33,181 nt of DNA from an uncultured Prevotellaceae bacterium (lineage in GTDB: Bacteria > Bacteroidota > Bacteroidia > Bacteroidales > Muribaculaceae). The stretch is from NCBI GenBank assembly GCA_900320055.1, contig ONQS01000025.1:1-33181 (forward strand), read 5' to 3'. The notes under the pieces are model-generated. The model was not told the DNA's origin. It saw only the letters and a list, made by a program, of their open reading frames with translations, and ran no database searches. The position numbers were made by a program, and so were the translations under genes. How positions within the stretch are numbered: the first letter of the stretch is position 1; each line of letters starts with the position of its first letter. This document shows, piece by piece, positions 16,747 through 31,424 of the stretch.

Positions 16747-16795
16747 TGCCCACCCCGATACAATAAAATGCGCGCCCCACGTGTTAGTATTATAG

Positions 16796-16886
16796 TGATT
16801 AGTGCTTAGTTGTTAGTCATTAGTGATTAGTTGTTAGTGATTAGTGATTAGTTGTTAGTCATTAGCGGTTGGTGATTAGTGATTAG
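16796..16886. repeat. Heptamer array A, 13 units of TNNTTAG
   Basis: Thirteen gapless 7-bp units: TGATTAG (6), TTGTTAG (3), TCATTAG (2), TGCTTAG and a degenerate CGGTTGG. The TTGTTAG unit is the exact reverse complement of CTAACAA in array B, so A and B form a large imperfect inverted repeat around a 24-bp spacer (16887-16910). It lies in the 325-bp gap after pgpH. Confidence 0.9.
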
Positions 16887-16910
16887 CGAGCATCAGCATT
16901 CTTGCTGCAA

Positions 16911-17066
16911 CTAAAAACTAACAACTAAAAACTATACAACTATACAACTAACAACTATACAACTATACAACTATACAACTATACAACTAAAAACTATACA
17001 ACTAAAAACTATACAACTATACAACTAAAAACTATACAACTAAAAACTAACAACTAAAAACTAAAA
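16911..17066. repeat. Heptamer/octamer array B upstream of the membrane protein gene
   Basis: Twenty full units and one partial unit with no gaps: CTAAAAA (7 full and one partial CTAAAA), CTAACAA (3) and CTATACAA (10). The array ends 5 bp before the ATG at 17072, so it forms the whole leader of that gene. No TAnnTTTG is visible between pgpH and this ATG. Confidence 0.92.
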
Positions 17067-17071
17067 CGCGC

Positions 17072-17563
17072 ATGATTATCCTGTACCGCATATTGTTCGG
17101 CATCGGCATCGCTTGCCTTGTGGCAGCAATCGCCCTTGTGCTACGGCCCCGTTGGGTCGCCGCCGTGCCCGCCTATGCCGGTCTGTGTCTCATGCACTGG
17201 AGTTACTATATCGACGTGCCGACGGTCACCTTCGCCTTCTGGGGCATTGCCACCCTCATCACCGTGGGACTCTTCTACCTCTCGCCCAGCGGCGAGCCCG
17301 ACGGCCACCGCTCCAGCAACCTCTATGTGGGATTCACCGCCATGGCAGGCGGCATGCTTGGCATCCTGCTTGCACCGCGCATCATGGTGCTCGGCGTCAT
17401 CCTTGGCGCCGCCATGGGTCAACTGGCCTATAGCCGCACGCCGGCAGGCCGCTGGATGCTGTCGCCATCGATCCTCTTCTGGCGATATTTTGCCGCCAAG
17501 TGCCTGCCCGCCATCGTCGCCATCGCCATTGTGTGCATCGCCATCATGGGCCTCGTCATCTAA
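17072..17563 (+). CDS. Small polytopic membrane protein, function unknown
   Basis: A 163-residue hydrophobic protein with about five transmembrane segments (roughly 4-24, 29-47, 51-71, 88-125 with a Gly/Ala-rich small-residue pattern, and 142-162). A charged loop GEPDGHRSSN lies between helices 3 and 4. I do not recognise a family with confidence; the Gly-rich packing is reminiscent of DUF456-like proteins but that is only a resemblance. The start ATG lies 5 bp after repeat array B. The stop codon TAA lies inside the first CTAACAA unit of array C. No function can be assigned. Confidence 0.75.
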   Translation: MIILYRILFGIGIACLVAAIALVLRPRWVAAVPAYAGLCLMHWSYYIDVPTVTFAFWGIATLITVGLFYLSPSGEPDGHRSSNLYVGFTAMAGGMLGILLAPRIMVLGVILGAAMGQLAYSRTPAGRWMLSPSILFWRYFAAKCLPAIVAIAIVCIAIMGLVI

Positions 17564-17625
17564 CAACTAAAAACTAAAAACTACACAACTAACAACTAAC
17601 AACTACACAACTAACAACTACACAA
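17560..17625. repeat. Heptamer/octamer array C overlapping a stop codon
   Basis: Nine gapless units: CTAACAA (4), CTAAAAA (2) and CTACACAA (3). The first unit contains the TAA stop of the preceding membrane protein gene. The array ends 12 bp before the ATG of the DUF4919 gene, so it fills almost the entire intergenic space. Confidence 0.9.
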
Positions 17626-17637
17626 GCATACATCCCA

Positions 17638-18363
17638 ATGAAACATATCCTCATCACCATCCTTATCGCCATCACAGCAGTGGCATCGTGCTGGGCTCAG
17701 GCACAACAGGTGCCCGAGCGCAACCAGCCCAGCAAGTTTGCGATCAAGAAGGTGGACTTCGACCACGTTCGTCAAGTCATCTCCAATCCCAACAACGCCT
17801 ACTACTATCCCAAGTTGATGCGCGCCTATAACAGCAACGACACCACCCTCTCGATCGAGGCCTGGCGCAACTTCTACTATGGTTACACCTTCCAGGAGGA
17901 TTACAACCCTTTCCGCGAGAGCGTCTACAGCAACGTGGTCGAGCAACTCTACTACAAGCAGCCACACTCCCGCGCCGAGTGCGACAGCATCGAGAAGTAT
18001 GCCGAACTGTCGCTCAACGACAACATGTTCGACCTCAACCAGATGAACTTCTACATCTACGTCCTCAAGGAGAAGAAGAAATATGCCCGCGCCGCCGTGC
18101 GGCAATACCGCCTCGACCGACTCATTGCCGCCATCATGTCGAGCGGCAAGGGCACCAAAGAGGAGCCCTGGGTCGTCATCGCTCCCGAGCACGAGTATAA
18201 CATCATCAACTTTTTGGGCTTTGTCGCCACCGAGCACGAGACCCTCGACGGCGGCATCGACTACATCAGGGTTCAGCCCGTGGCGGGCAAGAGCGCCGAA
18301 GGATTCTACTTCGACATCTCCCGCATGATGCAAGTCGCCGCCCTCAAGTTCCCCGACATCTGA
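17638..18363 (+). CDS. DUF4919 family exported protein
   Basis: A 241-residue exported protein recognised as DUF4919 from its overall pattern: a signal peptide, a helical TPR-like body (AWRNFYYGYTFQEDYNPFRES, YAELSLNDNMFDLNQMNFYIYVL), then KGTKEEPWVVIAPEHEYNIINFLGF and a final EGFYFDISRM. The signal peptide could be cleaved by signal peptidase I after AQA, or be lipidated at Cys18 in the lipobox-like VASC; the sequence does not decide. The family has no known function and is found in Bacteroidetes. It follows the small membrane protein with only array C between them, so the two are probably one operon. Confidence 0.8.
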   Translation: MKHILITILIAITAVASCWAQAQQVPERNQPSKFAIKKVDFDHVRQVISNPNNAYYYPKLMRAYNSNDTTLSIEAWRNFYYGYTFQEDYNPFRESVYSNVVEQLYYKQPHSRAECDSIEKYAELSLNDNMFDLNQMNFYIYVLKEKKKYARAAVRQYRLDRLIAAIMSSGKGTKEEPWVVIAPEHEYNIINFLGFVATEHETLDGGIDYIRVQPVAGKSAEGFYFDISRMMQVAALKFPDI

Positions 18364-18406
18364 TTCCATACCCAACTCCTCACTCTCCACCTCTCTCCAC
18401 CATTAA

Positions 18407-18505
18407 CACCACACAGCCCATGAGCAGGAAATACTCACACGAGCCTACATCTACAAGGGATCCGTCATGGAAGAACTCGGCCACCCCGACAGCGCCATGC
18501 AATGA
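18407..18505 (+). pseudogene. Relic of a TPR-protein gene
   Basis: A 32-codon stretch between in-frame stops at 18404 and 18503 encodes one good TPR-like helix pair, with the core LTRAYIYKGSVMEELGHPDSAM. This is the pattern seen in TPR-containing regulators of Bacteroidales. No start codon, upstream domain or downstream repeats are present, so it looks like a leftover fragment of a larger gene. Confidence 0.5.
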
Positions 18506-18859
18506 GTCAAAATCCGTGTAATTCGCATTGGCCTCGCAGGGCTTGGGCGGGGCCGCTATATCATTACAAAATCCGTTGTACTAAATCGCTGATTGTCAGA
18601 CAAGATTTCTTATTGCAAAACGCTCACGCGGAATACAGGATCTGCAGCGGCGCCACATCATCCAACTAGTCGACGACCATCACGAGAATGAACCGCCACA
18701 GGTCTGGCAGGCATCGGTCTGGCAGGAGGTTGTCAGAGTTGTTCAAGTTGTCTTTGATCATGGCATAGCAGGGCGTTTCGCTGCGGTAATTTGTCCTGCA
18801 TATCACTATAAGGGTGGTCAATTATTGTTTTTTAATGGATGGGATTGGAATTATTTGAT
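18506..18859. other. Gene-poor stretch
   Basis: About 350 bp with no convincing gene on either strand. It contains a short tandem GGTCTGGCAGG duplication (about 18701-18727) and a 31-codon minus-strand frame ending at 18666 that does not match anything I recognise. Together with the TPR relic it looks like decayed former coding DNA. Confidence 0.5.
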
Positions 18860-18867
18860 TACCTTTG
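18860..18867 (+). promoter_or_regulatory. -7 promoter element TACCTTTG
   Basis: TACCTTTG matches TAnnTTTG and lies 21 bp before the first ATG of the acyl-CoA ligase gene. Confidence 0.72.
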
Positions 18868-18888
18868 CACTCATAATCCCGTAGCACT

Positions 18889-20553
18889 ATGATGAAGGAA
18901 AACCTGATCAAGATTTATGAGCGCAGTTTCATCGACAACTGGGAACTGCCAGCACTGACTGATTACAATACAGGCGAGACACTGACCTATGGCGACTTTG
19001 CCCGCAATATCGCCAGGCTGCACATGCTGTTTGACGGCTGTGGCGTGAAGGCTGGTGACCGGATCGCCCTTATCGGTAAGAACATTCCCAACTGGCTGAC
19101 GGCCTTTATGGCCACCATCACCTATGGCGCCGTGATCGTGCCCATCCTGCAGGAGTTTAATCCCGCCGACGCGCAGCACATCATCAACCATAGCGAGGCC
19201 ACGATGCTGTTTATCAGCAAGAGCATCTGGGAGAACCTGGAGTTTGACAAGATGCCGCGCGTGCGCGCCGTGTTCCAGATCGAGGATATGTCGCTCGTGG
19301 CCGAGAAGGAGGGCGACAATGTTGCCACCCAAGCCATGGCCGGTCTGGATGCCGCCTTTGCCGCCAAATACAGTCAAGGCTTCTACCGCAACGACATCCA
19401 CTATCCCGAGGTGCCTAACGACGCCCTAGTCGAGATCAACTACACGTCGGGCACGACGGGCTTCAGCAAGGGCGTGATGCTCACGGCCAACAATCTGGCC
19501 GGCAACGTCGTGTATGGCATCAACTCGGGCCTGCACTACCGCGGCTCGCGAGGTCTGGCCTTCCTGCCGCTGGCACATGCGTTTGGCTGCGCATTCGACA
19601 TGCTCACGCCGCTGGCTGTGGGCTCGCACATCACCCTGCTGGGCCGTATTCCCTCACCCAAGATTCTGGTCAAGGCCATGGCCGAGGTCAAGCCCAATCT
19701 GGTGCTCACCGTGCCCCTGGTGCTTGAGAAGATCTATGCCAAGATGATTGTGCCCATGATCAGCAAGGGTGCTCTGCGCTGGGCGCTGGCTGTGCCCTAT
19801 CTGGACAAGCGCATCTATAGCCAGATACGCAACAAACTCATCGAGGCCTTCGGTGGCGAGTTTGAGGAGGTGATCGTGGGCGGTGCCCCGTTCAACGCCG
19901 AGGTCGAGGACTTCCTGTACAAGATCAAGTTCCCCTATACCGTGGGCTATGGCATGACCGAGTGCGGCCCGCTCGTGAGCCACACGCCGTGGCGCGAGTT
20001 TGTGCCCCATAGTGCCGGGCGCATCCTGCCAGGCATCATGGAGTGCAAGATTCTGAGCGACGATCCCGAGAACGTGCCTGGCGAAATCTGCGTGCGCGGC
20101 GAGAACGTGATGCAGGGCTACTTCCACAACACCGAGGCCACCGACAAGGTGCTGCACGACGACGGCTGGCTGCACACGGGCGACATGGGCACCCTCAATG
20201 CCGATGGCACATTATTTATAAGGGGACGCCTCAAGACGATGCTCCTGAGTTCGAGCGGACAGAACATCTACCCCGAGGAGATCGAGGCCAAACTCAACAA
20301 TATGCTCTACGTGAGCGAGAGCCTCGTGGTGATGCGCGAAGGCAAACTCGTGGCACTCGTCTATCCCGACTATGACGCCATGGACCAGTTGGGTGTGACC
20401 CGCGACAAACTGCCGGGCCTGATGGAGGACATCCGCACCGAACTCAACAAACTCGTGGCACCCTATGAGCGCATCGCCAAGATTCAACTCATCGCCACCG
20501 AGTTTGAGAAGACTCCCAAGCGCAGCATCAAGCGCTACCTCTACAGCAACTGA
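18889..20553 (+). CDS. AMP-dependent acyl-CoA ligase (long-chain fatty acid-CoA ligase type)
   Basis: A 554-residue enzyme of the adenylate-forming family that activates a carboxylic acid, probably a fatty acid, to its acyl-CoA via an acyl-AMP. The P-loop-like motif NYTSGTTGFSKGVMLT starts near residue 184. The A5 motif GYGMTECGP (about 355-363), the A7 region DDGWLHTGDMG (about 424-434), GRLKTMLLSSSGQNIYPEEIE and the C-terminal Lys in KTPKRSIKRYLY are all present, so it looks active. It has no signal peptide and is cytoplasmic. Two tandem ATGs (18889, 18892) follow the promoter. It is monocistronic, with a terminator at 20612. Chain-length preference cannot be read from the sequence. Confidence 0.92.
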   Translation: MMKENLIKIYERSFIDNWELPALTDYNTGETLTYGDFARNIARLHMLFDGCGVKAGDRIALIGKNIPNWLTAFMATITYGAVIVPILQEFNPADAQHIINHSEATMLFISKSIWENLEFDKMPRVRAVFQIEDMSLVAEKEGDNVATQAMAGLDAAFAAKYSQGFYRNDIHYPEVPNDALVEINYTSGTTGFSKGVMLTANNLAGNVVYGINSGLHYRGSRGLAFLPLAHAFGCAFDMLTPLAVGSHITLLGRIPSPKILVKAMAEVKPNLVLTVPLVLEKIYAKMIVPMISKGALRWALAVPYLDKRIYSQIRNKLIEAFGGEFEEVIVGGAPFNAEVEDFLYKIKFPYTVGYGMTECGPLVSHTPWREFVPHSAGRILPGIMECKILSDDPENVPGEICVRGENVMQGYFHNTEATDKVLHDDGWLHTGDMGTLNADGTLFIRGRLKTMLLSSSGQNIYPEEIEAKLNNMLYVSESLVVMREGKLVALVYPDYDAMDQLGVTRDKLPGLMEDIRTELNKLVAPYERIAKIQLIATEFEKTPKRSIKRYLYSN

Positions 20554-20611
20554 CAGATGCGTCACAGTGATGACGGCTTTGGGTAGGAGCCGCATATGGT
20601 TAACAAATTTT

Positions 20612-20648
20612 AACGGATGCCGCTAATGCGGCGTCCGTTTCTTTTTAT
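20612..20648 (+). terminator. Rho-independent terminator after the acyl-CoA ligase
   Basis: Arms 20612-20623 (AACGGATGCCGC) and 20628-20639 pair over 12 bp with one G-U around a TAAT loop, followed by CTTTTTAT. Confidence 0.85.
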
Positions 20649-20756
20649 ATTTGACTATCAGTTACTTACAACGTCACCCCGAAGCATCTTTCCCACAAAA
20701 TCAAAAAAAGTTGATAAAAAAAAATCAAAAAAAGTTTGCAGGTGAGAAATTTGTTA

Positions 20757-20764
20757 TAATTTTG
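20757..20764 (+). promoter_or_regulatory. -7 promoter element TAATTTTG
   Basis: TAATTTTG matches TAnnTTTG and lies in a very A-rich region (20695-20755) that could act as an UP-like element. The lipoprotein ATG follows 55 bp later in an AT-rich, unstructured leader. Confidence 0.65.
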
Positions 20765-20819
20765 CAGCGATTTTAACAACAGAAAATTATTGTTTTATTA
20801 TTTAAAATTACAGAAGAAA

Positions 20820-21044
20820 ATGAAGAAGTTAGTTTTAGCTCTTGCTGTTATCGCTAGCGTTAGCATGATTTCATGCACCAACAATGCCGAGCAGGCCACC
20901 GAGGCTGCTGAGGACACCACCGCCGTTGTTGAGGAGGTTGTAGATAGCGCCGCTGCTGTTGTTGACAGCGCTGCTGCCGTTGTTGATAGCGCTGCTGCTC
21001 CCGCTGAGGAGGCTGCTCCTGCTGAGGCTCCCGCTGCTGAGTAA
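20820..21044 (+). CDS. Small Ala/Glu-rich lipoprotein with VVDSAAA repeats
   Basis: A 74-residue lipoprotein. Residues 1-18 are a signal peptide with lipobox MISC (Cys19). The mature part is low-complexity: three tandem VVDSAAA heptads, encoded by 21-bp repeats at 20937-20999, then an Ala/Pro/Glu-rich tail. A helical or extended tether from the membrane is a reasonable guess; no enzymatic domain exists. Alanine is coded mostly by GCT rather than the GCC usual in the neighbouring genes, and valine mostly by GTT. The ribosomal L32 gene in this window has a similar GCT/CGT bias, which suggests high expression. It has its own promoter and a strong terminator. Confidence 0.85.
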   Translation: MKKLVLALAVIASVSMISCTNNAEQATEAAEDTTAVVEEVVDSAAAVVDSAAAVVDSAAAPAEEAAPAEAPAAE

Positions 21045-21072
21045 GCACAAGAGTTTACAACAAGAACGTTTG

Positions 21073-21111
21073 AAGTTGTTCCCGCCGTTAGGCTCGAGCA
21101 ACTTTTTTTTT
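21073..21111 (+). terminator. Terminator after the small lipoprotein gene
   Basis: An imperfect stem (AAGTTGTTC 21073-21081 with GAGCAACTT 21096-21104) runs into a tract of nine T (21103-21111). Confidence 0.75.
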
Positions 21112-21170
21112 GCATACATGCCGTCTCACCCGAGAATGACTGGGGCGGCATGAGAGAGGCCTGACATCAA

Positions 21171-21210
21171 GGGAGAGCCCGGAAACAAATCCAGGCTCTC
21201 CCTTGTTTTT
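21171..21210 (+). terminator. Second hairpin terminator between convergent genes
   Basis: GGGAGAGCC (21171-21179) pairs perfectly with GGCTCTCCC (21194-21202), extended inside by GGA/TCC, and is followed by TTGTTTTT. It lies 34 bp beyond the nagB stop and probably blocks transcription between the convergent units. Confidence 0.75.
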
Positions 21211-21243
21211 CTAATCGACTCTAGTGCCCCGTGGCAGCGAGGG

Positions 21244-22053
21244 TCACAGCAGGCTATCGGGATCCAGGTTGGCGCTCTCGATATCCTTGAAGTAGCGATA
21301 GGTGCCCACCTTGAGTTCCTCGACGGCCGTCTCGTCGGCGATGATGACAGCATGAGGATGCATCTGCAGGGCGCTCAGGGTGCACATGTGGGACACCCCA
21401 CCCTCGACAGCCTGCTGCAAGGCGCGGGCCTTGTTGTGGCCATTGACGATAATCATCACCTCGCGCGCATCCATCACAGTGCCGACGCCCACGGTGAGGG
21501 CCGTCTTGGGCACCTTGTTCAGGTCGCCGTCAAAGAAGCGGCTGTTGGCGATGATGGTGTCGCGCGTCAGGGTCTTCTGGCGCGTGCGCGAGGTCAGCGA
21601 TGAGCCAGGTTCGTTGAAGGCGATATGCCCGTCAGGCCCTACTCCGCCCATAAACAGGTCGATGCCGCCAACGGCCTGAATGCGGGCCTCGTAGTCGGCA
21701 CACTCCTGCGCCACATCGGCAGCGTTGCCGTTCAGGATGTTGACATGCTCGGGCTTGATGTCGATGTGCGAGAAAAAGTTGTTCCACATAAACGAGTGGT
21801 AACTCTCGGGATGCTCTTCGGGCAGGTTGCAGTACTCATCCATGTTGAAGGTGATCACATGCTCAAAGGACACTTTGCCAGCCTGGTTCATCGCGATGAG
21901 TTCGCGGTACATGCCCAGGGGCGAACTGCCCGTGGGACATCCCAGCACAAAGGGTTTGTCGGCCGTGGGACATGCTTCGTTGATACGCTTGGCCACATAG
22001 TGGGCGGCCCACTTCGATACATTCTCGTAATCCGGTTGGATGATCAGTCTCAT
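21244..22053 (-). CDS. nagB: Glucosamine-6-phosphate deaminase
   Basis: A 269-residue cytoplasmic enzyme that converts glucosamine-6-phosphate to fructose-6-phosphate and ammonia, the last step of amino-sugar catabolism. The catalytic residues fall at the same positions as in E. coli NagB: Asp72 (FNMDEY), Asp141 and His143 ([12 protein letters not shown]) and Glu148. The phosphate-binding [12 protein letters not shown] (38-49) is intact, and the length matches the family (about 266). The ATG at 22053 gives the canonical start [10 protein letters not shown]. No nagA or other amino-sugar gene is adjacent. It is divergent from surE with facing promoters 33 bp apart. Confidence 0.97.
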
Positions 22054-22091
22054 AATAATGCAGATTTTGTTGAGTTTTGTCTTTGATAAAG

Positions 22092-22099
22092 CAAAGTTA
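22092..22099 (-). promoter_or_regulatory. -7 promoter element TAACTTTG for nagB
   Basis: Minus-strand TAACTTTG matches TAnnTTTG and lies 38 bp upstream of the nagB ATG. Its -33 region overlaps the opposing surE promoter. Confidence 0.72.
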
Positions 22100-22132
22100 G
22101 TCAATTTCTTCCAATTCTCGATAAAAAAGTTG

Positions 22133-22140
22133 TAACTTTG
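22133..22140 (+). promoter_or_regulatory. -7 promoter element TAACTTTG for surE
   Basis: TAACTTTG matches TAnnTTTG and lies 27 bp before the surE ATG, back to back with the nagB promoter. Confidence 0.72.
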
Positions 22141-22167
22141 CGCCTAAAATCAGCAAAACAGACCCAG

Positions 22168-22950
22168 ATGGACAACAATAGGCCACTCATACTCATCAGT
22201 AACGACGACGGTTATCACTACAACGGCATCAAGTCGCTCATCAAGGTGGCGCAGCGCTATGGCGACGTGTTTGTCGCCGCACCTGCCGAGCACCAGAGCG
22301 GCAAGTCGAGCGCCATCACACTGGACCGTCCCGTGAGGGCCCACCTGCAGGAACAACGCGAGGGCTTCACCGCCATGGAAATCTCGGGCACCCCGGCCGA
22401 TTGCGTGAAACTGGCCATCAGCCAACTCATGCCTGACCGCCGCCCCGACCTGGTGCTGGCTGGCATCAACCACGGCTACAATATGGGTATCAGTTCGCTG
22501 TACAGCGGCACGATGGCCTGCGTGTATGAGGGCATCATGCATGGTGTCCCCTCGGTAGCGTTCTCCTATGGCTTGTACGGCCGCGACACCGACACCGACG
22601 TGTGCATCCCCATCGTGGAAAAGGTGCTGCAACGGGTGCTGCGCGACGGGCTGCCCCAGGACGTGTGCCTGAACGTGAATATCCCGCCCATGACCGACGG
22701 GCGGCAAGTCAAGGGCCTGAAGGCCACCATCAGCGACCTGGGCCGCTGGGTCAACGAGTGGGAAAAGCGCACCCACCCCATGGGCGGCGACTACTACTGG
22801 ATGACGGGCGAGTATGAGATGCTCGACGAGCATGACGACCGCACCGACATGTACTGGCTGCGCCGCGGCTATGCCACCGTCACCCCATGCCACATCGACC
22901 AGACCGACCACGACTCGGTCGACAGGATCGCCCGCATGCTGGAGCAGTGA
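22168..22950 (+). CDS. surE: 5'-nucleotidase SurE
   Basis: A 260-residue metal-dependent nucleotide phosphatase of the SurE family, which removes phosphate from 5'/3'-nucleoside monophosphates in the cytoplasm. Metal and active-site residues are intact: Asp13-Asp14 in [10 protein letters not shown], Ser44 in [11 protein letters not shown] and Asn101 in [10 protein letters not shown]. The D13-to-S44 spacing of 31 equals that in E. coli SurE. The ATG at 22168 was chosen because it follows the promoter and gives the usual short lead-in to ISNDDG. The gltX gene follows 53 bp later without a visible promoter, so co-transcription is likely. Confidence 0.95.
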
Positions 22951-23003
22951 CATCACAACAGGACAACAATTCAATAACAAAACAATACAATCAGTATAAT
23001 AAC

Positions 23004-24542
23004 ATGGAACGAAGAGTAAGAGTTCGCTTTGCGCCTTCACCCACGGGCCCGCTGCACATCGGCGGCGTGCGCACAGCGCTGTATAACTACCTGTTTGCCC
23101 GCCAGCACGGCGGCGACATGATCCTGCGCATCGAGGACACCGACAGCACCCGCTTTGTGCCCGGTGCCGAAGCGTATATCAACGAGGCCCTGCAATGGCT
23201 GGGCATCGGTATCGACGAGGGCGTGAGGGAAGGCGGCAACTATGGCCCCTACAAGCAGAGCGAGCGCCGCGACCTGTACCGCAAGCACATGCAGCAACTC
23301 GTGGATGCTGGACGCGCCTACTATGCCTTTGACACCCCCGAGGAACTCGAGGCCAAGCGTCAGGAGATCAAGAATTTCCAGTACGATGCCCGCACACGCG
23401 GCATGATGCGCAACTCACTCTCACTGCCCGCCGACGAGGTCAAGGCCCTCATGGACAAGGGCGAGAAGTGGGTGGTGCGTTTCCTGATCGAACCCGACCA
23501 GGACGTCGTGGTCCACGACCTGCTGCGTGGCGACGTGACCATCAACTCGTCGATCCTCGACGACAAGGTGCTCTACAAGAGCGCCGACGACCTGCCCACC
23601 TATCACCTGGCCAACATCGTGGATGACCACCTGATGGAGGTCTCACACGTGATCCGCGGCGAGGAGTGGCTCCCCAGCGCCCCCCTGCACGTGCTGCTGT
23701 ATCAGGCCTTCGGGTGGGAAGAAAGCATGCCCGCATTTGTCCACCTGCCGCTGCTGCTCAAGCCCGACGGCAAGGGCAAACTCAGCAAGCGTGACGGTGA
23801 CCGTCTGGGCTTCCCCGTGTTCCCTCTCGACTGGATTGACCCCAAGAGTGGCGAGCGCTCCAGCGGCTATCGCGAGGCAGGCTATCTGCCCCAGGCCGTG
23901 GTCAACTTCCTGGCCCTGCTGGGATGGAACCCTGGCGACGACCGTGAGATCTTCTCAATGGACGAGTTGATCCAAGAGTTCTCGATCGACCATTGCTCAC
24001 GCAAGGGCGCCAAGTTTGACTTCGAGAAGGGCAAATGGTTCAACCACGAGTACCTCATCAACATGGAGGACAGCCAACTGGCAGAGATGTTCAAGCCCGT
24101 GCTCGAGCAGCATGGCGTGAACACGGCCGGCTTCAGCGACGACTACATCACCCGCGCCGTGGCACTGGTCAAGAGCCGTGCCAACTTTGTGGGCGACTTG
24201 TGGGAACAGGCAGGCTTCTTCTTCGTGCGCCCGACCACCTACAGCGAGAAGGACATCCGCAAGCGCTGGAAGGCCGAGACACCCGAACTCATGCGCCAAC
24301 TGGCCGCCCTGCTCGAAACCACCGACCTGAACGACGCCCAAGCCAGCGAAGCCGTGGTCATGGACTGGATCGACAAGAACGGCTACCACAAGGGCAACGT
24401 GATGAACGCCTTCCGCCTGACCGTTGTGGGCGAGTGCCGTGGCCCGCACATGTTTGACATCACCCGCCTGCTGGGACGCGACGAGACGCTCGCCCGCCTC
24501 AACGCCGGCATCGCCAGCATCCAGTTGCCCGCCGATGCGTAA
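23004..24542 (+). CDS. gltX: Glutamyl-tRNA synthetase
   Basis: A 512-residue class I aminoacyl-tRNA synthetase that charges tRNA-Glu. The HIGH-type signature is in [12 protein letters not shown] (10-21), the KMSKS-type loop reads KLSKR at 259-263, and RIEDTDSTR (42-50) is the usual glutamate-pocket element. The length is standard. The leader (22951-23003) is A/C-rich and unstructured with no Shine-Dalgarno sequence, the usual Bacteroidetes situation. The stop codon at 24540-24542 overlaps the start of the outer-membrane protein gene by 8 bp. Confidence 0.97.
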
Positions 24543-25623
24543 CTGGCTATTAGCCATATTGACCCTACTGACAGCCATTCCGCCTCTTGCCGCCCAGGAG
24601 GTGGAATGGAGTGTCGACGCCAGTGTGCTGGCCAACAACCGCGAGGGCGGAGAAGATCAGTTCACTCCCGACCAGACCTTTATCTTCACCCGTCTGGCGC
24701 CCGAGTTAGGCGTCTCGATGATGGACGGCCGCCACGTGCTCAAGGGGGGCATCGTGTGGTATCAGCCCATGATCGACGACATGAGCGGCTACAAGATTCT
24801 CCCCACCCTCTATTACCGCTACAATAGCGACAACGGTTGGCACCTGACGGCCGGCATGATGCCGCGCTCGCTCATGGTCAACCGCATGCCCCGCTACCTG
24901 TGGAGCGATTCGCTCAACTACTGCCAGCCCAACATCAGGGGCGTGATGGCACAGTATGTCGTGCCCGCCGGCTATGGCGAAATCGCCGTCGACTGGCGAC
25001 AGATACAGACCGAGCATCAGCGCGAGGCCTTCACCATCATGGTCAACAACGACTGGCAGGTAGCAGGCCCCTTCAGGCTAGGCGGACACGTGCAATATAG
25101 TCATCTGGCTATGAGCCGCAACCATAACGACGACCAGCACGTCAACGACGACCTGGTCATCAACCCCATGGCATCGGTCGACCTGTCACACCGCACACTG
25201 CTCGACTCGCTGCGCTTCTCGGCAGGAGCCATCATCGCCATGGAGCGCGACCGCAGCGACGACCGTTGGCACAAGCCGGCAGGATTTGTCGCCACAGCCA
25301 CCGCACGCTGGCGCTGGCTGCAACTCGACGAGACCTTCTACACCGGCCAGAGGCTTATGCCGCTGCTGCCCAAATTCGGCAGCCGGCTCAATCTGGGCGA
25401 CCCCTACTTTGACAACAAGACATATAGCCGCACCGATCTGATCCTGCACGTCGTGAGCAACCGCTTTGTGGACCTGTCGGCCTCACTGACCCTCCACGCC
25501 AGCGAGCGCACCACGGGTTTCTGGCAGCAGATCGCATGCCGCTTCTATCTGGACAGCAACCTGTGGAATCGCCGCCACGATCATGACTACCTCAAGAGCG
25601 GCCGCCTGCAACAAACCTTCTAA
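24535..25623 (+). CDS. Outer-membrane beta-barrel protein, function unknown
   Basis: A 362-residue exported protein. The signal peptide is [21 protein letters not shown]. The mature part alternates short amphipathic strands with many aromatic residues ([34 protein letters not shown]) and ends in Phe (RLQQTF), the usual C-terminal signature of proteins assembled by the Bam machinery. No enzymatic motif is recognised. The ATG at 24535 overlaps the end of gltX by 8 bp, so translation is probably coupled. The waaA gene follows 23 bp later. Adjacency to Kdo transferase is compatible with an envelope role, but no specific function can be claimed. Confidence 0.75.
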
Positions 25624-25646
25624 CCGACTAAACACCACCGCCCGAT

Positions 25647-26879
25647 ATGGACCCGATATACAACCTAGGCATAACCACCTACCGCAACGCAGTGAGAATT
25701 GCCGCTGTGCGTAATCCCAAGGCTAAACTGATGCTGCGCGGACAGCGCCGCTGTATCCGCACCCTGCAGCGCAAACTTGACCCCGCCGGCGGCTACATCT
25801 GGGTACACGCCTCATCGCTAGGCGAGTTTGAGCAGGGACGCCCGCTCATCGAGAAGATCAAGCGCGAGCAGCCCGGCGCACGCATCCTGTTGTCGTTTTT
25901 CTCGCCCTCGGGCTATGAGGTGCGCAAAAACTTCAGCATGGTCGAAACCGTGGTCTACCTGCCCTTTGACCTGCCCTCCAACGTCAAGAAATTCCTCGAC
26001 ATCGTCAAACCGTCGATGGCCATCTTTGTCAAGTACGAGTTTTGGGGTAACTATCTGGCAGCCCTCAAGCAACGCGGCATACCCACCTACATCATCTCGG
26101 CCATCTTCCGTCCCGGGCAGATCTTTTTCAGACCCTGGGGCGGCATGTTCCGCAAGATGCTCAAGTGCTTCGACACCCTGTTTGTGCAGAACGAGCAGTC
26201 GCGCGAACTGCTGGCCGGCATCAGCATCGACAACGTGGTGGTGGCAGGAGATACCCGATTTGACCGCGTGGCCGACGTGCGCTCTGCCGCACGCGAGTTC
26301 CCGCTGGTAGCCAAGTTTGTGGAGCGCTCACGCTTCACGCTGGTCATGGGCAGTTCGTGGCCTCCCGACGAGGATCTGGTGATTCCCTACTTCAACACTC
26401 ACCGCGACATGAAACTCATCATCGCGCCCCACGAGTTTGACCGCCACCGGCTGCACGTGCTCATGTCCAAACTTTCTCGTCCCGCCCGCTTCTACAGTGA
26501 GGCTACCCCCCAAAACATCGAGAAGGCCGACTGCCTGATCATCGACAGTTTCGGCCTCCTGTCATCGCTCTACCGCTATGGACAGGCAGCCTATGTGGGT
26601 GGCGGATTCGGCGCCGGCATCCACAACATCAACGAGGCCGCCGTCTACGGCATTCCCGTCATCTTTGGTCCCAAGCACAACAAGTTTCAGGAGGCCAAGG
26701 ACCTCATCGCCGTCGATGGCGCGATGAGCATCCACGATGCCGACAGTTTCTCGGCCGCCATGGACCCCCTGCTTGAGAATGAGCCCCTGCGGCTGCAATG
26801 CGGCAAGTCGGCCGGCGACTACATCGAGTCCCATCTGGGCGGCACCCAACTCATCTATGACGCGATCTTCGGCAAGTAG
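25647..26879 (+). CDS. waaA: 3-deoxy-D-manno-octulosonic acid (Kdo) transferase
   Basis: A 410-residue GT30 enzyme that transfers Kdo from CMP-Kdo to lipid A precursor at the cytoplasmic face of the inner membrane, an early step of LPS core assembly. The catalytic motif HASSLGEFEQGRPL gives Glu60. KYEFWGN (129-135), the central SAIFRPGQIFFRPWG (151-165) and the GGGFGAGIHNINEAAVYGIPVIFGP nucleotide-sugar segment (about 316-340) are all present. The N-terminal helix serves as membrane anchor or association site. It is third in a probable gltX-OMP-waaA unit with short gaps. Whether it adds one or more Kdo residues cannot be read from sequence. Confidence 0.95.
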   Translation: MDPIYNLGITTYRNAVRIAAVRNPKAKLMLRGQRRCIRTLQRKLDPAGGYIWVHASSLGEFEQGRPLIEKIKREQPGARILLSFFSPSGYEVRKNFSMVETVVYLPFDLPSNVKKFLDIVKPSMAIFVKYEFWGNYLAALKQRGIPTYIISAIFRPGQIFFRPWGGMFRKMLKCFDTLFVQNEQSRELLAGISIDNVVVAGDTRFDRVADVRSAAREFPLVAKFVERSRFTLVMGSSWPPDEDLVIPYFNTHRDMKLIIAPHEFDRHRLHVLMSKLSRPARFYSEATPQNIEKADCLIIDSFGLLSSLYRYGQAAYVGGGFGAGIHNINEAAVYGIPVIFGPKHNKFQEAKDLIAVDGAMSIHDADSFSAAMDPLLENEPLRLQCGKSAGDYIESHLGGTQLIYDAIFGK

Positions 26880-27003
26880 TCCCCAAACCGCACTCCACAA
26901 GCGCCACAGCCACGCGGCAACGAGGCCTGGCACACAAGCCAAAAGAAGAAAGCCTGAGCAAAAAAAAAACGCCAAAAACGTTGAATATTAGCGGGAAATG
27001 TTA

Positions 27004-27011
27004 TACCTTTG
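27004..27011 (+). promoter_or_regulatory. -7 promoter element TACCTTTG for yceD-rpmF
   Basis: TACCTTTG matches TAnnTTTG and lies 26 bp upstream of the yceD ATG. Unusually for this window, AGGAG directly precedes that ATG, at a spacing too close for a normal Shine-Dalgarno sequence. Confidence 0.72.
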
Positions 27012-27037
27012 TGGCGCTTTAACGAAAATTTCAGGAG

Positions 27038-27583
27038 ATGGTAGATGCTTTGAAGTTGAAACTCAAGACGTTACCGTTTGGCACTCACACGGTTGAGTGT
27101 CATCTCGATGAGTCGTTTTTTAACCTCGATGAGCAATCCGAAGTGCGCCATGCCGACGTCGATGTCACCCTCAAAGTGACCCGCAAGAGCGAGAGCACAT
27201 ACCACCTGGAGATCGCGTGTGACGGCACAGTGACCATTCCCTGCGACCGCTGCTTGGACGATCTGGATTTGCCGGTGGAAGTCGACTATAGCCTGAACGT
27301 GGAGCAACTGGGCAACGAAGTGGACGACAGCAATGACGACCTCCTGATTGTGCCATCACACTGGCGAGAACTGGATGCCGCACCTCTGGTGCGCGACACC
27401 GTGCTGCTCGCCCTGCCGATGACGCGCACTCATGAGGATCAGCGTGATTGTAACGCCGCCATGCTCGATTTGCTCGACAGCCATCGCGTCGAGGCCGTCC
27501 CCGACGATGATGACGACCAGCAGAGTGAAACAACCGGCACCGACCCCAGGTGGGAGGCGCTTAAAAAACTGAAACAACAATAA
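27038..27583 (+). CDS. yceD: YceD family protein (DUF177)
   Basis: A 181-residue cytoplasmic protein of the YceD/DUF177 family, known in several bacteria to be encoded next to rpmF and linked to 23S rRNA maturation. The zinc-like cysteines C61, C69 and C72 (ACDGTVTIPCDRCLDD), the acidic middle and tail, and the C-terminal DPRWEALKKL typical of Bacteroidetes members are visible. It lies 21 bp upstream of rpmF and is clearly co-transcribed. Confidence 0.9.
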   Translation: MVDALKLKLKTLPFGTHTVECHLDESFFNLDEQSEVRHADVDVTLKVTRKSESTYHLEIACDGTVTIPCDRCLDDLDLPVEVDYSLNVEQLGNEVDDSNDDLLIVPSHWRELDAAPLVRDTVLLALPMTRTHEDQRDCNAAMLDLLDSHRVEAVPDDDDDQQSETTGTDPRWEALKKLKQQ

Positions 27584-27604
27584 CTTTTAAATAACAACAA
27601 GACA

Positions 27605-27787
27605 ATGGCACATCCTAAAAGAAGACAGTCTAAGACTCGTACCGCTAAGCGCCGCACCCACGATGTGGCTGTGGCTCCGACCATCGCTCAGTGCTCCAAC
27701 TGTGGTGCATGGCACGTTTATCACACCGTATGCCCCGAGTGCGGTTACTACCGTGGCAAGAACGTGATGAACAAGGAGGAGGCCTAA
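27605..27787 (+). CDS. rpmF: 50S ribosomal protein L32
   Basis: A 60-residue ribosomal protein of the large subunit. The start MAHPKRRQSKTRTAKRRTHD is canonical. All four zinc-ribbon cysteines are kept (C30, C33, C43, C46), so this is the zinc-binding C+ form rather than the zinc-free paralogue used under zinc limitation. Codons are biased to CGT, GCT and AAG as expected for a highly expressed gene. It follows yceD by 21 bp. Confidence 0.98.
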   Translation: MAHPKRRQSKTRTAKRRTHDVAVAPTIAQCSNCGAWHVYHTVCPECGYYRGKNVMNKEEA

Positions 27788-27881
27788 ATCGCAACACGGC
27801 GATGAGACACGCGACCGCAAGGTAACGGGTCACGACGCCCCGCGATTATAGCAAACGAGATATCCTGAATGGGCTGAATCA

Positions 27882-27979
27882 TTATAACATCATTCAATCT
27901 CATTTGGGATATTGATTTTGAACAAACACCTCTTATTATATATTATAACAGGTTTTAATCTACACGTTATTATTATAAC
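27882..27979. promoter_or_regulatory. Triple TTATAAC motif upstream of fabH
   Basis: The 204-bp gap between rpmF and fabH is AT-rich and contains three copies of TTATAAC (27882-27888, 27943-27949, 27973-27979). The third lies in a near-palindrome GTTATTATTATAAC (27966-27979). No clean TAnnTTTG is present. These could be promoter or operator elements for fabH; the repetition is seen, the role is a guess. Confidence 0.35.
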
Positions 27980-27991
27980 GCTTTCACGCTT

Positions 27992-28975
27992 ATGCTGAAC
28001 GCTAAGATTACTGGCATCGCGTCATACATCCCCGATGACATCCTGGACAACGAGATGCTTTCACGCATGGTGGACACCAACGACGAGTGGATCACCACGC
28101 GCGTCGGTGTCAAGGAGCGTCGCATCCTCAAGAAGCCTGTCGGCTCGTCCTATATGGGCATCCAGGCCGTGAACAAACTGCTCGAGGAGACCGGCACTGA
28201 CCGCAACGACATCGACCTGCTCATCTGCCCCACGTCCAACCCCGACCACCGATTCCCCTCCACGGCATCTATTATCGCTCATGGCGTGGGCATCGAGAAG
28301 AAGTGCTACGCCTATGATATTCAGGCCGCATGCGCCGGATTCCTGGTTGGCCTGTACGAGGCCACAGCCTACATCCGCTCGGGCATATACAAGAAGGTAA
28401 TCGTTGTATCGGCCGAGAAGATGTCCAGCATGGTCAACTACAAGGACCGCGCGACATGCCCCCTGTTTGGTGACGCTGCAGCAGCCATGCTGCTCGAGCC
28501 TACCGAGGAGAACATCGGCGTGATGGACGGCATATTCCATGTCGACGGCTCTGGACTGGAGCACCTGGTCTATAAGGCCGGTGGCTCGGCTCTGCCCGCC
28601 AGTCACGAGACGATCGACGCCGACTTCCACTACGTCTACCAAGAGGGACGCGCGGTATACCGCCACGCCGTCATCGACATGCTCACCTCCAGCCAGGATA
28701 TCATGAAGCGCAACGGACTGACCAACGACAGCATCCAGTGGTTTGTGCCTCATCAGGCCAACCTGCGCATCATCGAGGCCGTCGGAGCACGCCTCAACAT
28801 AGACGAGAAGAAAGTGCTGGTCAACATCCAGCAGCGCGGTAACACCAGCGCCGCCAGCATCCCCTTGTGTCTAGACGAGAACAAGCATCGCCTCCACAAG
28901 GGCGACAAGATGGTCCTCACCGCATTCGGCGCAGGATTCACCTGGGGCGCCCTCTACCTCATCTGGTCGCTGTAA
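27992..28975 (+). CDS. fabH: 3-oxoacyl-ACP synthase III
   Basis: A 327-residue KAS III that condenses acetyl-CoA (or a branched primer) with malonyl-ACP to start fatty-acid synthesis. The Cys-His-Asn triad is complete: Cys114 in QAACAGF, His254 in VPHQAN and Asn284 in RGNTSAAS. The end, GFTWGALYLIWSL, is typical. In many bacteria the order is yceD-rpmF-plsX-fabH; here plsX is absent from the gap, which is too short to hold it. An AT-rich region precedes the start; era follows after a hairpin. Confidence 0.96.
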   Translation: MLNAKITGIASYIPDDILDNEMLSRMVDTNDEWITTRVGVKERRILKKPVGSSYMGIQAVNKLLEETGTDRNDIDLLICPTSNPDHRFPSTASIIAHGVGIEKKCYAYDIQAACAGFLVGLYEATAYIRSGIYKKVIVVSAEKMSSMVNYKDRATCPLFGDAAAAMLLEPTEENIGVMDGIFHVDGSGLEHLVYKAGGSALPASHETIDADFHYVYQEGRAVYRHAVIDMLTSSQDIMKRNGLTNDSIQWFVPHQANLRIIEAVGARLNIDEKKVLVNIQQRGNTSAASIPLCLDENKHRLHKGDKMVLTAFGAGFTWGALYLIWSL

Positions 28976-29060
28976 TGGCTCGTGACGCTGTGTCGCGGCC
29001 TTTGCCGCTGCGATGCCAGCACGACCAGGCGCCCGATTGAGTGTGAAGACAATCATCAAC

Positions 29061-29106
29061 GAAGCATCACTACTCATCATTGCACCGGCAAGAGTAGCGA
29101 TGCTTC
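29061..29106 (+). terminator. Hairpin between fabH and era
   Basis: Arms 29061-29075 (GAAGCATCACTACTC) and 29092-29106 form a 15-bp stem with one A-C mismatch and a 16-nt loop, followed by TTGAATAACC. Without a T tract it is a weak terminator or an mRNA-processing/attenuation site between fabH and era. Confidence 0.45.
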
Positions 29107-29138
29107 TTGAATAACCGACCCGGCCCAATCAACCACGA

Positions 29139-29159
29139 CTAACGACAAACGACAAAAAA
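29139..29159. repeat. Degenerate heptamer trio upstream of era
   Basis: Three gapless 7-bp units, CTAACGA, CAAACGA and CAAAAAA, end 12 bp before the era ATG. They resemble the CTAACAA/CTAAAAA units of arrays B-D and may be a decayed or early form. Confidence 0.5.
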
Positions 29160-29171
29160 CCATACGCAACA

Positions 29172-30053
29172 ATGCATCGAGCAGGATTTGTTAACATAGT
29201 GGGAAACCCCAATGTGGGAAAATCGACCCTGAGCAACCGCCTGGTGGGCGAGCGCCTGTCCATCATCACCAGCAAGGCACAGACCACGCGCCACCGCATC
29301 ATGGGCATCGTCAATGGAGAGGACTATCAGATCGTCTTCAGCGACACCCCTGGCGTGCTCAAACCCAAGTTCCGCCTCCAGCAGAGCATGCTGGAATACT
29401 CGACCGGCGCCCTGGTCGATGCCGACGTGCTGCTCTATGTCACCGATGTGATCGAGAGCCCGACCAAGAATCAGGACTTCCTCGACAAGGTCGCCAAGGA
29501 GCAGATACCCATCCTGCTGATCATCAACAAGATCGACCTGCTGAAAGGCAACGACGACCTCATGCGCATCATCGACCAGTGGAAGCAACTCCTGCCCAAC
29601 GCCGAGGTGTTCCCGACCAGCGCCCTGGAGAACTTCAACGTCGACAACATCATGAAGCGCATCGTCGAGTTACTGCCCGAGTGCCCGCCCTACTTCGGCA
29701 AGGACGCCCTCACCGACCGCAGCAGCCGCTTCTTTGTCACCGAAATCGTCCGCGAGAAGATCCTACTCACCTATGACAAGGAAGTACCCTATGCCACACA
29801 GGTCATCGTCGAGAAGTTTGACGAGAGCGACAAGGCCATACACATCATGGCCGTCATCTATGTCGAGCGCGATAGCCAGAAGGGCATCATCATCGGCCAC
29901 CAGGGCAAGATGCTCAAGCGCGTAGGCACCCTCGCACGCAAGGACATCGAAACCTTCTTTGACAAGAAAGTCTTCCTCGAACTCTACGTCAAGGTCGAGA
30001 AAGACTGGCGCAACCAAGAGAACAAACTCCGCGCCTTCGGCTACATCGAGTAA
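29172..30053 (+). CDS. era: GTPase Era
   Basis: A 293-residue essential GTPase that binds the 3' end of 16S rRNA and helps 30S subunit maturation. The GTPase motifs are G1 GNPNVGKS (11-18), switch I SKAQTTRH (34-41), G3 DTPG (58-61) and G4 NKID (119-122). The C-terminal KH domain contains GIIIGHQGKMLKRVG, the RNA-binding loop. The length is normal. The leader is the A/C-rich heptamer-like stretch with no Shine-Dalgarno sequence. The der gene follows 57 bp later on the same strand. Confidence 0.97.
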   Translation: MHRAGFVNIVGNPNVGKSTLSNRLVGERLSIITSKAQTTRHRIMGIVNGEDYQIVFSDTPGVLKPKFRLQQSMLEYSTGALVDADVLLYVTDVIESPTKNQDFLDKVAKEQIPILLIINKIDLLKGNDDLMRIIDQWKQLLPNAEVFPTSALENFNVDNIMKRIVELLPECPPYFGKDALTDRSSRFFVTEIVREKILLTYDKEVPYATQVIVEKFDESDKAIHIMAVIYVERDSQKGIIIGHQGKMLKRVGTLARKDIETFFDKKVFLELYVKVEKDWRNQENKLRAFGYIE

Positions 30054-30073
30054 TAAAAGCCAAGGACAAAAGA

Positions 30074-30108
30074 CTAACAACCAAGGACTAACAACTAAAA
30101 ACTAACAA
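30074..30108. repeat. Heptamer array D upstream of der
   Basis: Five gapless 7-bp units: CTAACAA, CCAAGGA (degenerate), CTAACAA, CTAAAAA and CTAACAA. The array ends 2 bp before the der ATG and uses the same units, in the same orientation, as arrays B and C 13 kb away. Confidence 0.85.
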
Positions 30109-30110
30109 TA

Positions 30111-31424
<1,314 letters not shown>

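Follow-up and report, generated by a model that had tools for sequence, protein, structure and literature searches.

Tandem heptamers in intergenic regions are familiar from Cyanobacteria as short tandemly repeated repetitive (STRR) sequences, and gene-less elements with inverted repeats as miniature inverted-repeat transposable elements (MITEs). In Coxiella, the intervening sequence (IVS) of the 23S rRNA has inverted ends which are cut by RNase III and carries heptamer repeats before the S23 open reading frame (ORF); according to the available portion of that report (PMC4990558), IVSs had earlier been proposed to be remnants of transposition or of mobile elements, and no growth effect was detectable beyond rRNA fragmentation. 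The available portion of a second report (MacGregor 2015, PMC4679880) describes TAACTGA heptamers near start codons in Beggiatoaceae, which also occur in Cyanobacteria and five Bacteroidetes. A translational role was proposed for them, a repeat-binding protein acting as a mobile element being the alternative, and no means of transfer was apparent; heptamers close to start codons, with a suggested role in translation, are thus already published. We have analysed a stretch of 33,181 nucleotides (the window; GenBank assembly GCA_900320055.1, contig ONQS01000025.1) from an uncultured Prevotellaceae bacterium, in which arrays of CTAANAA units end immediately before the start codons of several unrelated genes. 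These arrays probably represent arm sequences of small intergenic elements, most of them without a gene, of a type whose gene-bearing form encodes a 23S rRNA-intervening sequence protein (IVP; PF05635).

The window contains 25 overlapping matches to CTAAMAACTAAMAA with at most two mismatches, 19 on the plus strand and six on the minus strand within array A, where 0.24 are expected; a count of 25 was reached in none of 100 shuffles. Arrays were delimited with Tandem Repeats Finder (TRF) and from the sequence itself, arrays A and B additionally from unit counts. Array A (16793..16886, minus strand) is an antisense, left arm of CTAACAA, CTAATCA and CTAATGA units read on the minus strand. A spacer defined from the sequence (16887..16907) separates it from array B (16908..17067, plus strand; TRF to 17063), a sense, right arm composed of CTAAAAA/CTAACAA 7-mers and CTATACAA 8-mers, which is followed by gcgc and the ATG at 17072. 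The resulting gap of 4 bp replaces the 5 bp given in the preliminary description of this DNA, whose values for arrays C and D were reproduced. Array C (17560..17625, plus strand), with sense CTAACAA/CTAAAAA units and CTACACAA 8-mers, ends 12 bp before the ATG at 17638 and, as previously noted, holds the stop codon of the preceding gene, the TAA at 17561-17563 lying inside its first unit. Array D (30069..30108, plus strand), short and partly degenerate, ends 2 bp before the der ATG at 30111. The degenerate trio before era (29135..29156, plus strand, TRF), formerly counted as a member located 12 bp from its ATG, reads ACGACTA/ACGACAA/ACGACAA and lies 15 bp before the ATG at 29172; it is a different, weaker repeat and was left out of the array set because it has no phased CTA units. 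No IVP gene was found in the window and its arrays would therefore be gene-less members.

Placement was investigated in 822,078 bp (31%) of the draft genome (2.63 Mb in 73 contigs, the window being contig 51), consisting of 55 stretches plus the window; 30 of the 55 were centred on arrays, the others being contig starts. Genes were called with a simple codon model and not with Prodigal, such that gene starts are our own calls, and an array was defined as four or more words, CTA or TAG, recurring in phase every 7-8 bp. In the whole genome, an array 19-mer occurs 154 times and never when read backwards. When 40 relatives were examined, 12 of the 24 congeners (1 to 70 matches) and one of the 16 genomes of other families contained this 19-mer; its number therefore varies sharply from species to species. 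All 63 arrays of the sample are intergenic and none lies inside a gene, in part because all three frames of the units are interrupted by stop codons. Of the arrays flanked by genes of the same direction, 39 are sense and 15 antisense (p = 0.0015), with seven more between divergent and two between convergent genes; a stricter array definition gives 45 sense, 11 antisense, five divergent, one convergent and one at a stretch edge. A sense array ends within 20 bp of a start codon in 27 of the 63 cases, compared with a mean of 11.9 when position and orientation are randomised (p = 0.0002) and of 20.0 when orientation is kept (p = 0.0026). Thus, the proximity of sense arrays to starts, on which the preliminary description was built, is real when compared with random placement, but its antisense mirror image at stops is equally sharp, the median gap being 11 bp from sense array to start and 3 bp from upstream stop to antisense array. 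The statement in that description that the units are always in sense is contradicted by array A, which directly precedes B and is antisense, and by the 15 antisense arrays among the 54 between same-direction genes. Like the leaders of this genome, the arrays are rich in A and poor in G, A being 0.55 in arrays and 0.40 in leaders and G 0.03 and 0.14, respectively. A promoter role of the arrays was considered and dropped; no -7/-33 motif was noticed in the units, no formal test having been made.

The sample contains 50 array regions, of which 39 have a single orientation and 11, including A with B, have both. The polarity of the latter is fixed, the antisense array preceding the sense array in 11 of 11, so that both 3' ends point outward, placing CTAANAA before starts and TTNTTAG after stops. 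Predicted RNA folds of the 11 paired regions have z values of -4.0 to -11.1 (40 shuffles each), whereas 30 gaps lacking arrays average -2.8 and the 32 regions with one orientation -1.8. One of these pairs (L058) is situated between divergent genes and holds what by eye is a tRNA-like stretch; another holds an IVP gene. The window pair has complementary inverted ends and a predicted fold of -79.7 kcal/mol (z -6.8), while C and D, as single arms, have no such ends and are predicted to be unstructured (0 and -1.8 kcal/mol). Of the features of the leader envisaged previously, A-richness is present, and lack of structure is predicted for C and D but not for array B, because B pairs with A. The two arms also differ in vocabulary. 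CTAYACAA 8-mers are confined to one arm in all 11 pairs and CTAAGAA/CTAAAGA to the arm without 8-mers in 10 of the 11, the window pair having CTAATCA/CTAATGA instead. On the contig strand the 8-mer arm is the left one in five pairs and the right one in six; by our reading of the loci it lies beside a start in seven and beside a stop in three, one pair being between divergent genes. Different vocabularies occurring both ways round are as expected from an element with two unlike ends inserted in either direction. In addition, one 23-mer mixing 7- and 8-mers is found in 10 regions and the units were therefore probably dispersed, not grown afresh. The two vocabularies are well illustrated at L081:189-558, where long arms meet head to head with no gene between them, (TTGTGTAGTTGTTAG)n / (CTAAGAACTAAAGA)m.

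The ORF enclosed by one of the 11 pairs (L086, G000:C45:3971-4288) is located between yidC and a TM2-type gene, and its product matches PF05635, the 23S rRNA-intervening sequence protein family (E = 1.8e-40; 'four helix bundle protein' in NCBIfam), as well as two solved structures by sequence (2gsc and 2rld). It falls below the cut-offs for Avd (PF22296, 32.2 of 40; NF033474, 36.7 of 80), the protein of diversity-generating retroelements that is encoded beside a reverse transcriptase and a template repeat. This is the sole PF05635 match above cut-off in the genome (E = 4e-40 in the genome search), with four weaker ones, and near one of these (L089, C19:35076) a further tandem array, of GTCTTTAAG/GTCCTTAAG type, is present. 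Many loci of relatives likewise have a PF05635 ORF inside arms, the family being matched in 50 of 61 genomes, among them the one studied here. Flanks were evaluated by matching the 250 bp that precede an IVP gene to the reverse-complemented 250 bp that follow, with a cut of at least 16, at 80 loci: 70 from this and other genomes, and 10 of 29 records of cyanobacterial plasmids. The loci are the best match per genome plus the next best among the matches listed and do not constitute a random sample. An inverted match was obtained at 53 of the 80 loci (six of the 10 plasmid loci), compared with 4/300 mismatched pairs, 4/300 other genes of this genome and 4/80 in direct orientation. By eye, the flanks are often short tandem arrays with a unit varying by element, such as TTTTTAG/TCCTTAG, TTTTCAG/TTGTCAG, GTTTTAG/GCTTTAG, GGGAACA and GGGAGTA. 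Eight related IVP insertions (L112, L135, L137, L140, L144, L145, L146 and L151), apparently beside a tRNA gene by eye, have arms of GTTTAGAGTTTAGGG-type units, which we take to resemble plant telomere repeats.

IVP genes are under strong purifying selection, with dN/dS values of 0.04-0.15 in 10 of 12 pairs and two not computable, although several dS values exceed 2 and are saturated. In 14 groups of IVP insertions with shared flanking sequence, 42 loci in all, the arms of a locus match each other better than the arms of its sister loci in 35 cases; the remaining seven show the opposite, several groups show little difference, and the p value of 1.5e-5 is optimistic because the 42 loci are related. 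Together, these results make it probable that either arm-to-arm pairing or copying from one arm to the other is maintained. Strictly concerted change of the arms at yidC|TM2 was dropped as a proposal, L190 having GTGTTAG units on the left and CTAAAAC/CTAAGAC on the right. The tree computed here has few columns and many open forks.

Occupied and empty sites were compared at the species level only, among the 30 best-matching loci per search. One of 30 loci was dropped at each of yidC|TM2 and pyrG|yidC, leaving 29; four of 29 congeners were dropped at the A+B/C site (upstream gene not recovered), leaving 25, and two of 30 loci at era|der (era not found). At yidC|TM2, this genome and four congeners, five out of 29, have IVP, and inverted arms are observed in all five with IVP and in none of the 24 without it (p = 8e-6), two of the latter scoring 15, just below the cut. 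At pyrG|yidC, IVP is present in four of 29, all with arms, and this genome has a gene-less sense array. The A+B pair is missing from all 25 comparable congeners, 24 of which have a plain spacer of 39-93 bp and one (L240) a spacer of 269 bp; the latter holds, by eye, a different inverted pair of GGTTAAAG... / ...CTTTAACC type with no IVP match. At the array C site, the interval is -4 to 44 bp in 24 of 25 congeners, L243 having an antisense array of another unit, and a sense array occurs in none of the 25.

Other genes occupy such sites as well. In 11 genomes, pyrG|yidC, where other species have IVP, is occupied by a GxxExxY gene (PF13366, PD-(D/E)XK superfamily). Inverted ends reaching 16 are found at six of these 11 loci and also at one of 14 sites without a gene, and these insertions were dropped as evidence for arms. 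Across GxxExxY loci, inverted flanks were observed in 18/30, compared with 2/300 mismatched pairs; the loci concerned are L402, L405, L408, L409, L411, L414, L417, L419, L426 and L430-L459, and by eye the inverted repeats are often longer words than the 7-8 bp arrays. The arms may not belong to one protein alone.

We propose that a complete element comprises, as seen at the loci examined, an antisense array, (TTNTTAG)n, an optional small ORF (PF05635 IVP) and a sense array, (CTAANAA)m, each array having its 3' end outermost, and that it would insert between genes. Gene-less copies, which outnumber the gene-bearing one, would perhaps be moved in trans by IVP. The arms would pair in the transcript to form a hairpin which would probably be cut by RNase III, as in rRNA IVSs, and such cutting would let the element sit inside operons at low cost. 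Sense arms may persist before starts because A-rich, G-poor RNA suits initiation in Bacteroidetes. The position of the arrays before ATGs would thus result from outward-facing arms, from the narrow spacing of genes within operons and from counter-selection of arrays that fall inside genes. The short repeats in question would then look like the end pieces of a probably mobile element, not like a purpose-built translation switch. A and B are likely the two arms of one such element and array C, with slightly less confidence, a single arm; for array D the same origin is possible but somewhat less likely than not.

Several observations weigh against this proposal. The entire genome has a single strong IVP gene, against 50 array regions in 31% of it, and IVP and array counts across 24 congeners are weakly related (Spearman 0.37, p = 0.08), such that IVP dosage was dropped as a driver of array number. 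A clear inverted match was not obtained at 27 of the 80 IVP loci. At yidC|TM2, the stretch between IVP and the right arm, promoter-like by eye, is also present in IVP-free congeners, and the element is therefore not a neat one-piece insertion there. Neither a target-site duplication nor a transposase was found, no systematic search having been made. Single-orientation regions between same-direction genes number 28 sense and five antisense, an excess which a symmetric element would not predict without selection. Finally, at era|der, at least three phased sense units of various sequences are present in 20 of 27 congeners, compared with a mean of 2.3 and a maximum of 6 in 200 shuffles. In L221 and L225, an antisense arm precedes the sense units. 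For the array D site, local growth or long-lived leaders fit as well as an inserted arm.

The preliminary description regarded the arrays as modular, expandable translation-initiation leaders, that is, A-rich and unstructured 5' untranslated regions whose copy number tunes expression. The enrichment of sense arrays before starts, with orientation kept or not, would be expected of such leaders, as would the predicted lack of structure in C and D, the phased sense units at era|der and, according to the available portion of PMC6847099, the absence of Shine-Dalgarno sequences in Bacteroidetes, in which initiation is tuned by mRNA structure. In contrast, leaders do not account for antisense arrays adjoining stops, for the single order of all two-orientation regions, for the pairing of B with A, for the absence of A+B and of a sense array at C from every comparable congener, or for an architecture common to IVP flanks. 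We therefore consider the leader interpretation unlikely as the main explanation, and what survives of it, in part, is the 28:5 excess of lone sense regions. Growth of the arrays by replication slippage from CTAANAA-like seeds in A-rich leaders, with no element involved, is similarly improbable. Seed-like words do exist in array-free congeners, for example CTAACAG before TM2 and CTAAGAACTGAAA before DUF4919 in L251, and the units are phased and 7 or 8 bp long; however, local growth is at odds with the mixed 23-mer shared by 10 regions, with two arms whose differing vocabularies occur both ways round, with the antisense arrays, and with the distribution of arms at yidC|TM2, where they are found in 5/5 genomes with IVP and at 0/24 sites without it.

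The arrays could also be intercistronic sites of RNA processing or binding selected by the host, either the arms of hairpins cut by RNase III or targets of a repeat-binding protein of the sort MacGregor proposed for TAACTGA. The strong folds predicted for all 11 paired regions are consistent with this, as is the better matching of arms within 35 of 42 loci, from which pairing may be selected, and in rRNA IVSs it is the paired ends that RNase III cleaves (PMC4990558, available portion). However, the A+B and C sites are not conserved among congeners, and both the IVP gene and insertion in two directions are left unexplained. As a sole explanation, host processing appears very unlikely, but it could hold alongside the proposed element.

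With respect to the described systems, the proposed IVP-type element resembles the 23S rRNA IVS in having an IVP ORF between inverted complementary ends able to form a stem, and tandem heptamers are reported for the Coxiella IVS too, in the portion of PMC4990558 available. Unlike the IVS, the IVP copies found here are located between other genes, often in operons, gene-less pairs exist, and many ends are short-unit arrays whose sequence changes by element. A location in the 23S rRNA gene was not observed, the arrays lying between protein genes and the inspected IVP genes having other neighbours, although rRNA genes were not searched. The likeness to MITEs consists of inverted ends and of gene-less copies outnumbering the gene-bearing copy, whereas the ends here are tandem arrays of variable length. 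To our knowledge, no transposase partner of inverted-array elements has been described. Among the open-licence PMC papers listed in literature searches, no title or abstract opening revealed a published link of IVP or GxxExxY genes to intergenic tandem arrays; one of them, PMC10910872, mentions the protein a single time.

Like the TAACTGA repeats, the arrays are tandem heptamers, intergenic, mostly sense and near starts; both occur before genes of unrelated function and have a patchy phylogeny, the TAACTGA repeats lying a few bases from starts in Beggiatoaceae. They differ in the unit, which is CTAANAA here, although the der junction of L201 and L207 has AACTGATAACTGA-like units, and no link to IVP was found in the available portion of PMC4679880. 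When public genomes were scanned for three TAACTGA units, at least 110 loci were obtained. Of the 110, one (L333:7154-7981, a Nostocales contig) has a complete IVP gene flanked by inverted arms of TCAGTTA and TAACTGA units and one (L355) a weak 42-codon IVP fragment beside the array; the proposition that TAACTGA arrays usually flank IVP was accordingly dropped. The L333 case proves nothing alone, because random placement puts an ORF within 400 bp of an array in 17% of cases. In a Microcystis locus (L379), an IVP gene is followed by seven TAACTGA units. PF05635 is present in 21 of 24 TAACTGA genomes, but also in the 50 of 61 genomes around that of the window, and its absence from the other three, including one Parabeggiatoa, counts with the points raised above against an IVP-type origin. 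At the IVP loci of TAACTGA genomes, inverted flanks were observed in 19 of 30, compared with 3/300 mismatched pairs. Judged from these sequences, a link between the elements described here and the published TAACTGA repeats is no more than suggestive.

In relation to the STRR heptamers, GGGAACA and GGGAGTA units here form inverted arms around IVP genes on the cyanobacterial plasmids. Four plasmid IVP genes are situated between nrdB and nrdA (L160), between cas6 and cas4 (L161 and L162) and between cmr2 and cmr3 (L167), with inverted flank scores of 31, 26, 24 and 14, respectively. IVP in cas loci has been treated as a CRISPR-Cas-associated function (PMC3936711, available portion), and IVP lies between cas genes here as well. 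Inverted flanks at both cas6|cas4 copies suggest insertion rather than such a function, the score at cmr2|cmr3 being under the cut.

Taken further, and with some reservation, it is possible that Bacteroidota, Cyanobacteria and other groups share a widespread class of mobile elements of small size whose termini are not fixed repeats but inverted arrays, able to expand, of 7-8 bp units, the two arms changing together. Such elements would carry a gene for IVP or for a GxxExxY nuclease-like protein, or none, and would be inserted between operon genes, their arms being the source of CTAANAA here, of TAACTGA in Beggiatoaceae and of the cyanobacterial STRR heptamers. If true, this would provide one explanation for start-proximal heptamers of patchy phylogeny which lack an evident transfer mechanism (MacGregor 2015). 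It would also account for IVP genes in rRNA and cas operons and perhaps for the cyanobacterial short tandem repeats. How IVP elements move becomes testable by comparing arms and empty sites with copies that bear or lack the gene, and not every start-proximal repeat should be taken for a regulatory leader.

Among the genes adjoining the arrays of the window, all on the plus strand, A+B is preceded by a 7TM-HD hydrolase gene (14665..16746; PF07698/PF01966), the start of which is uncertain, the frame being open from 14563. The gene between B and C (17072..17563) encodes 163 amino acids, a membrane protein according to the preliminary description, and its product has no match in Pfam or NCBIfam. 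Array C is followed by a DUF4919 gene (17638..18363; PF16266, E = 2.4e-56). The era (29172..30053) and der (30111..31424) genes were assigned by NCBIfam, as GTPase Era and TIGR03594, respectively. Elsewhere in the window, a 21-bp tandem repeat (20937-20999) lies within a small ORF (20820-21044) whose product is, by eye, alanine-rich and lipoprotein-like.

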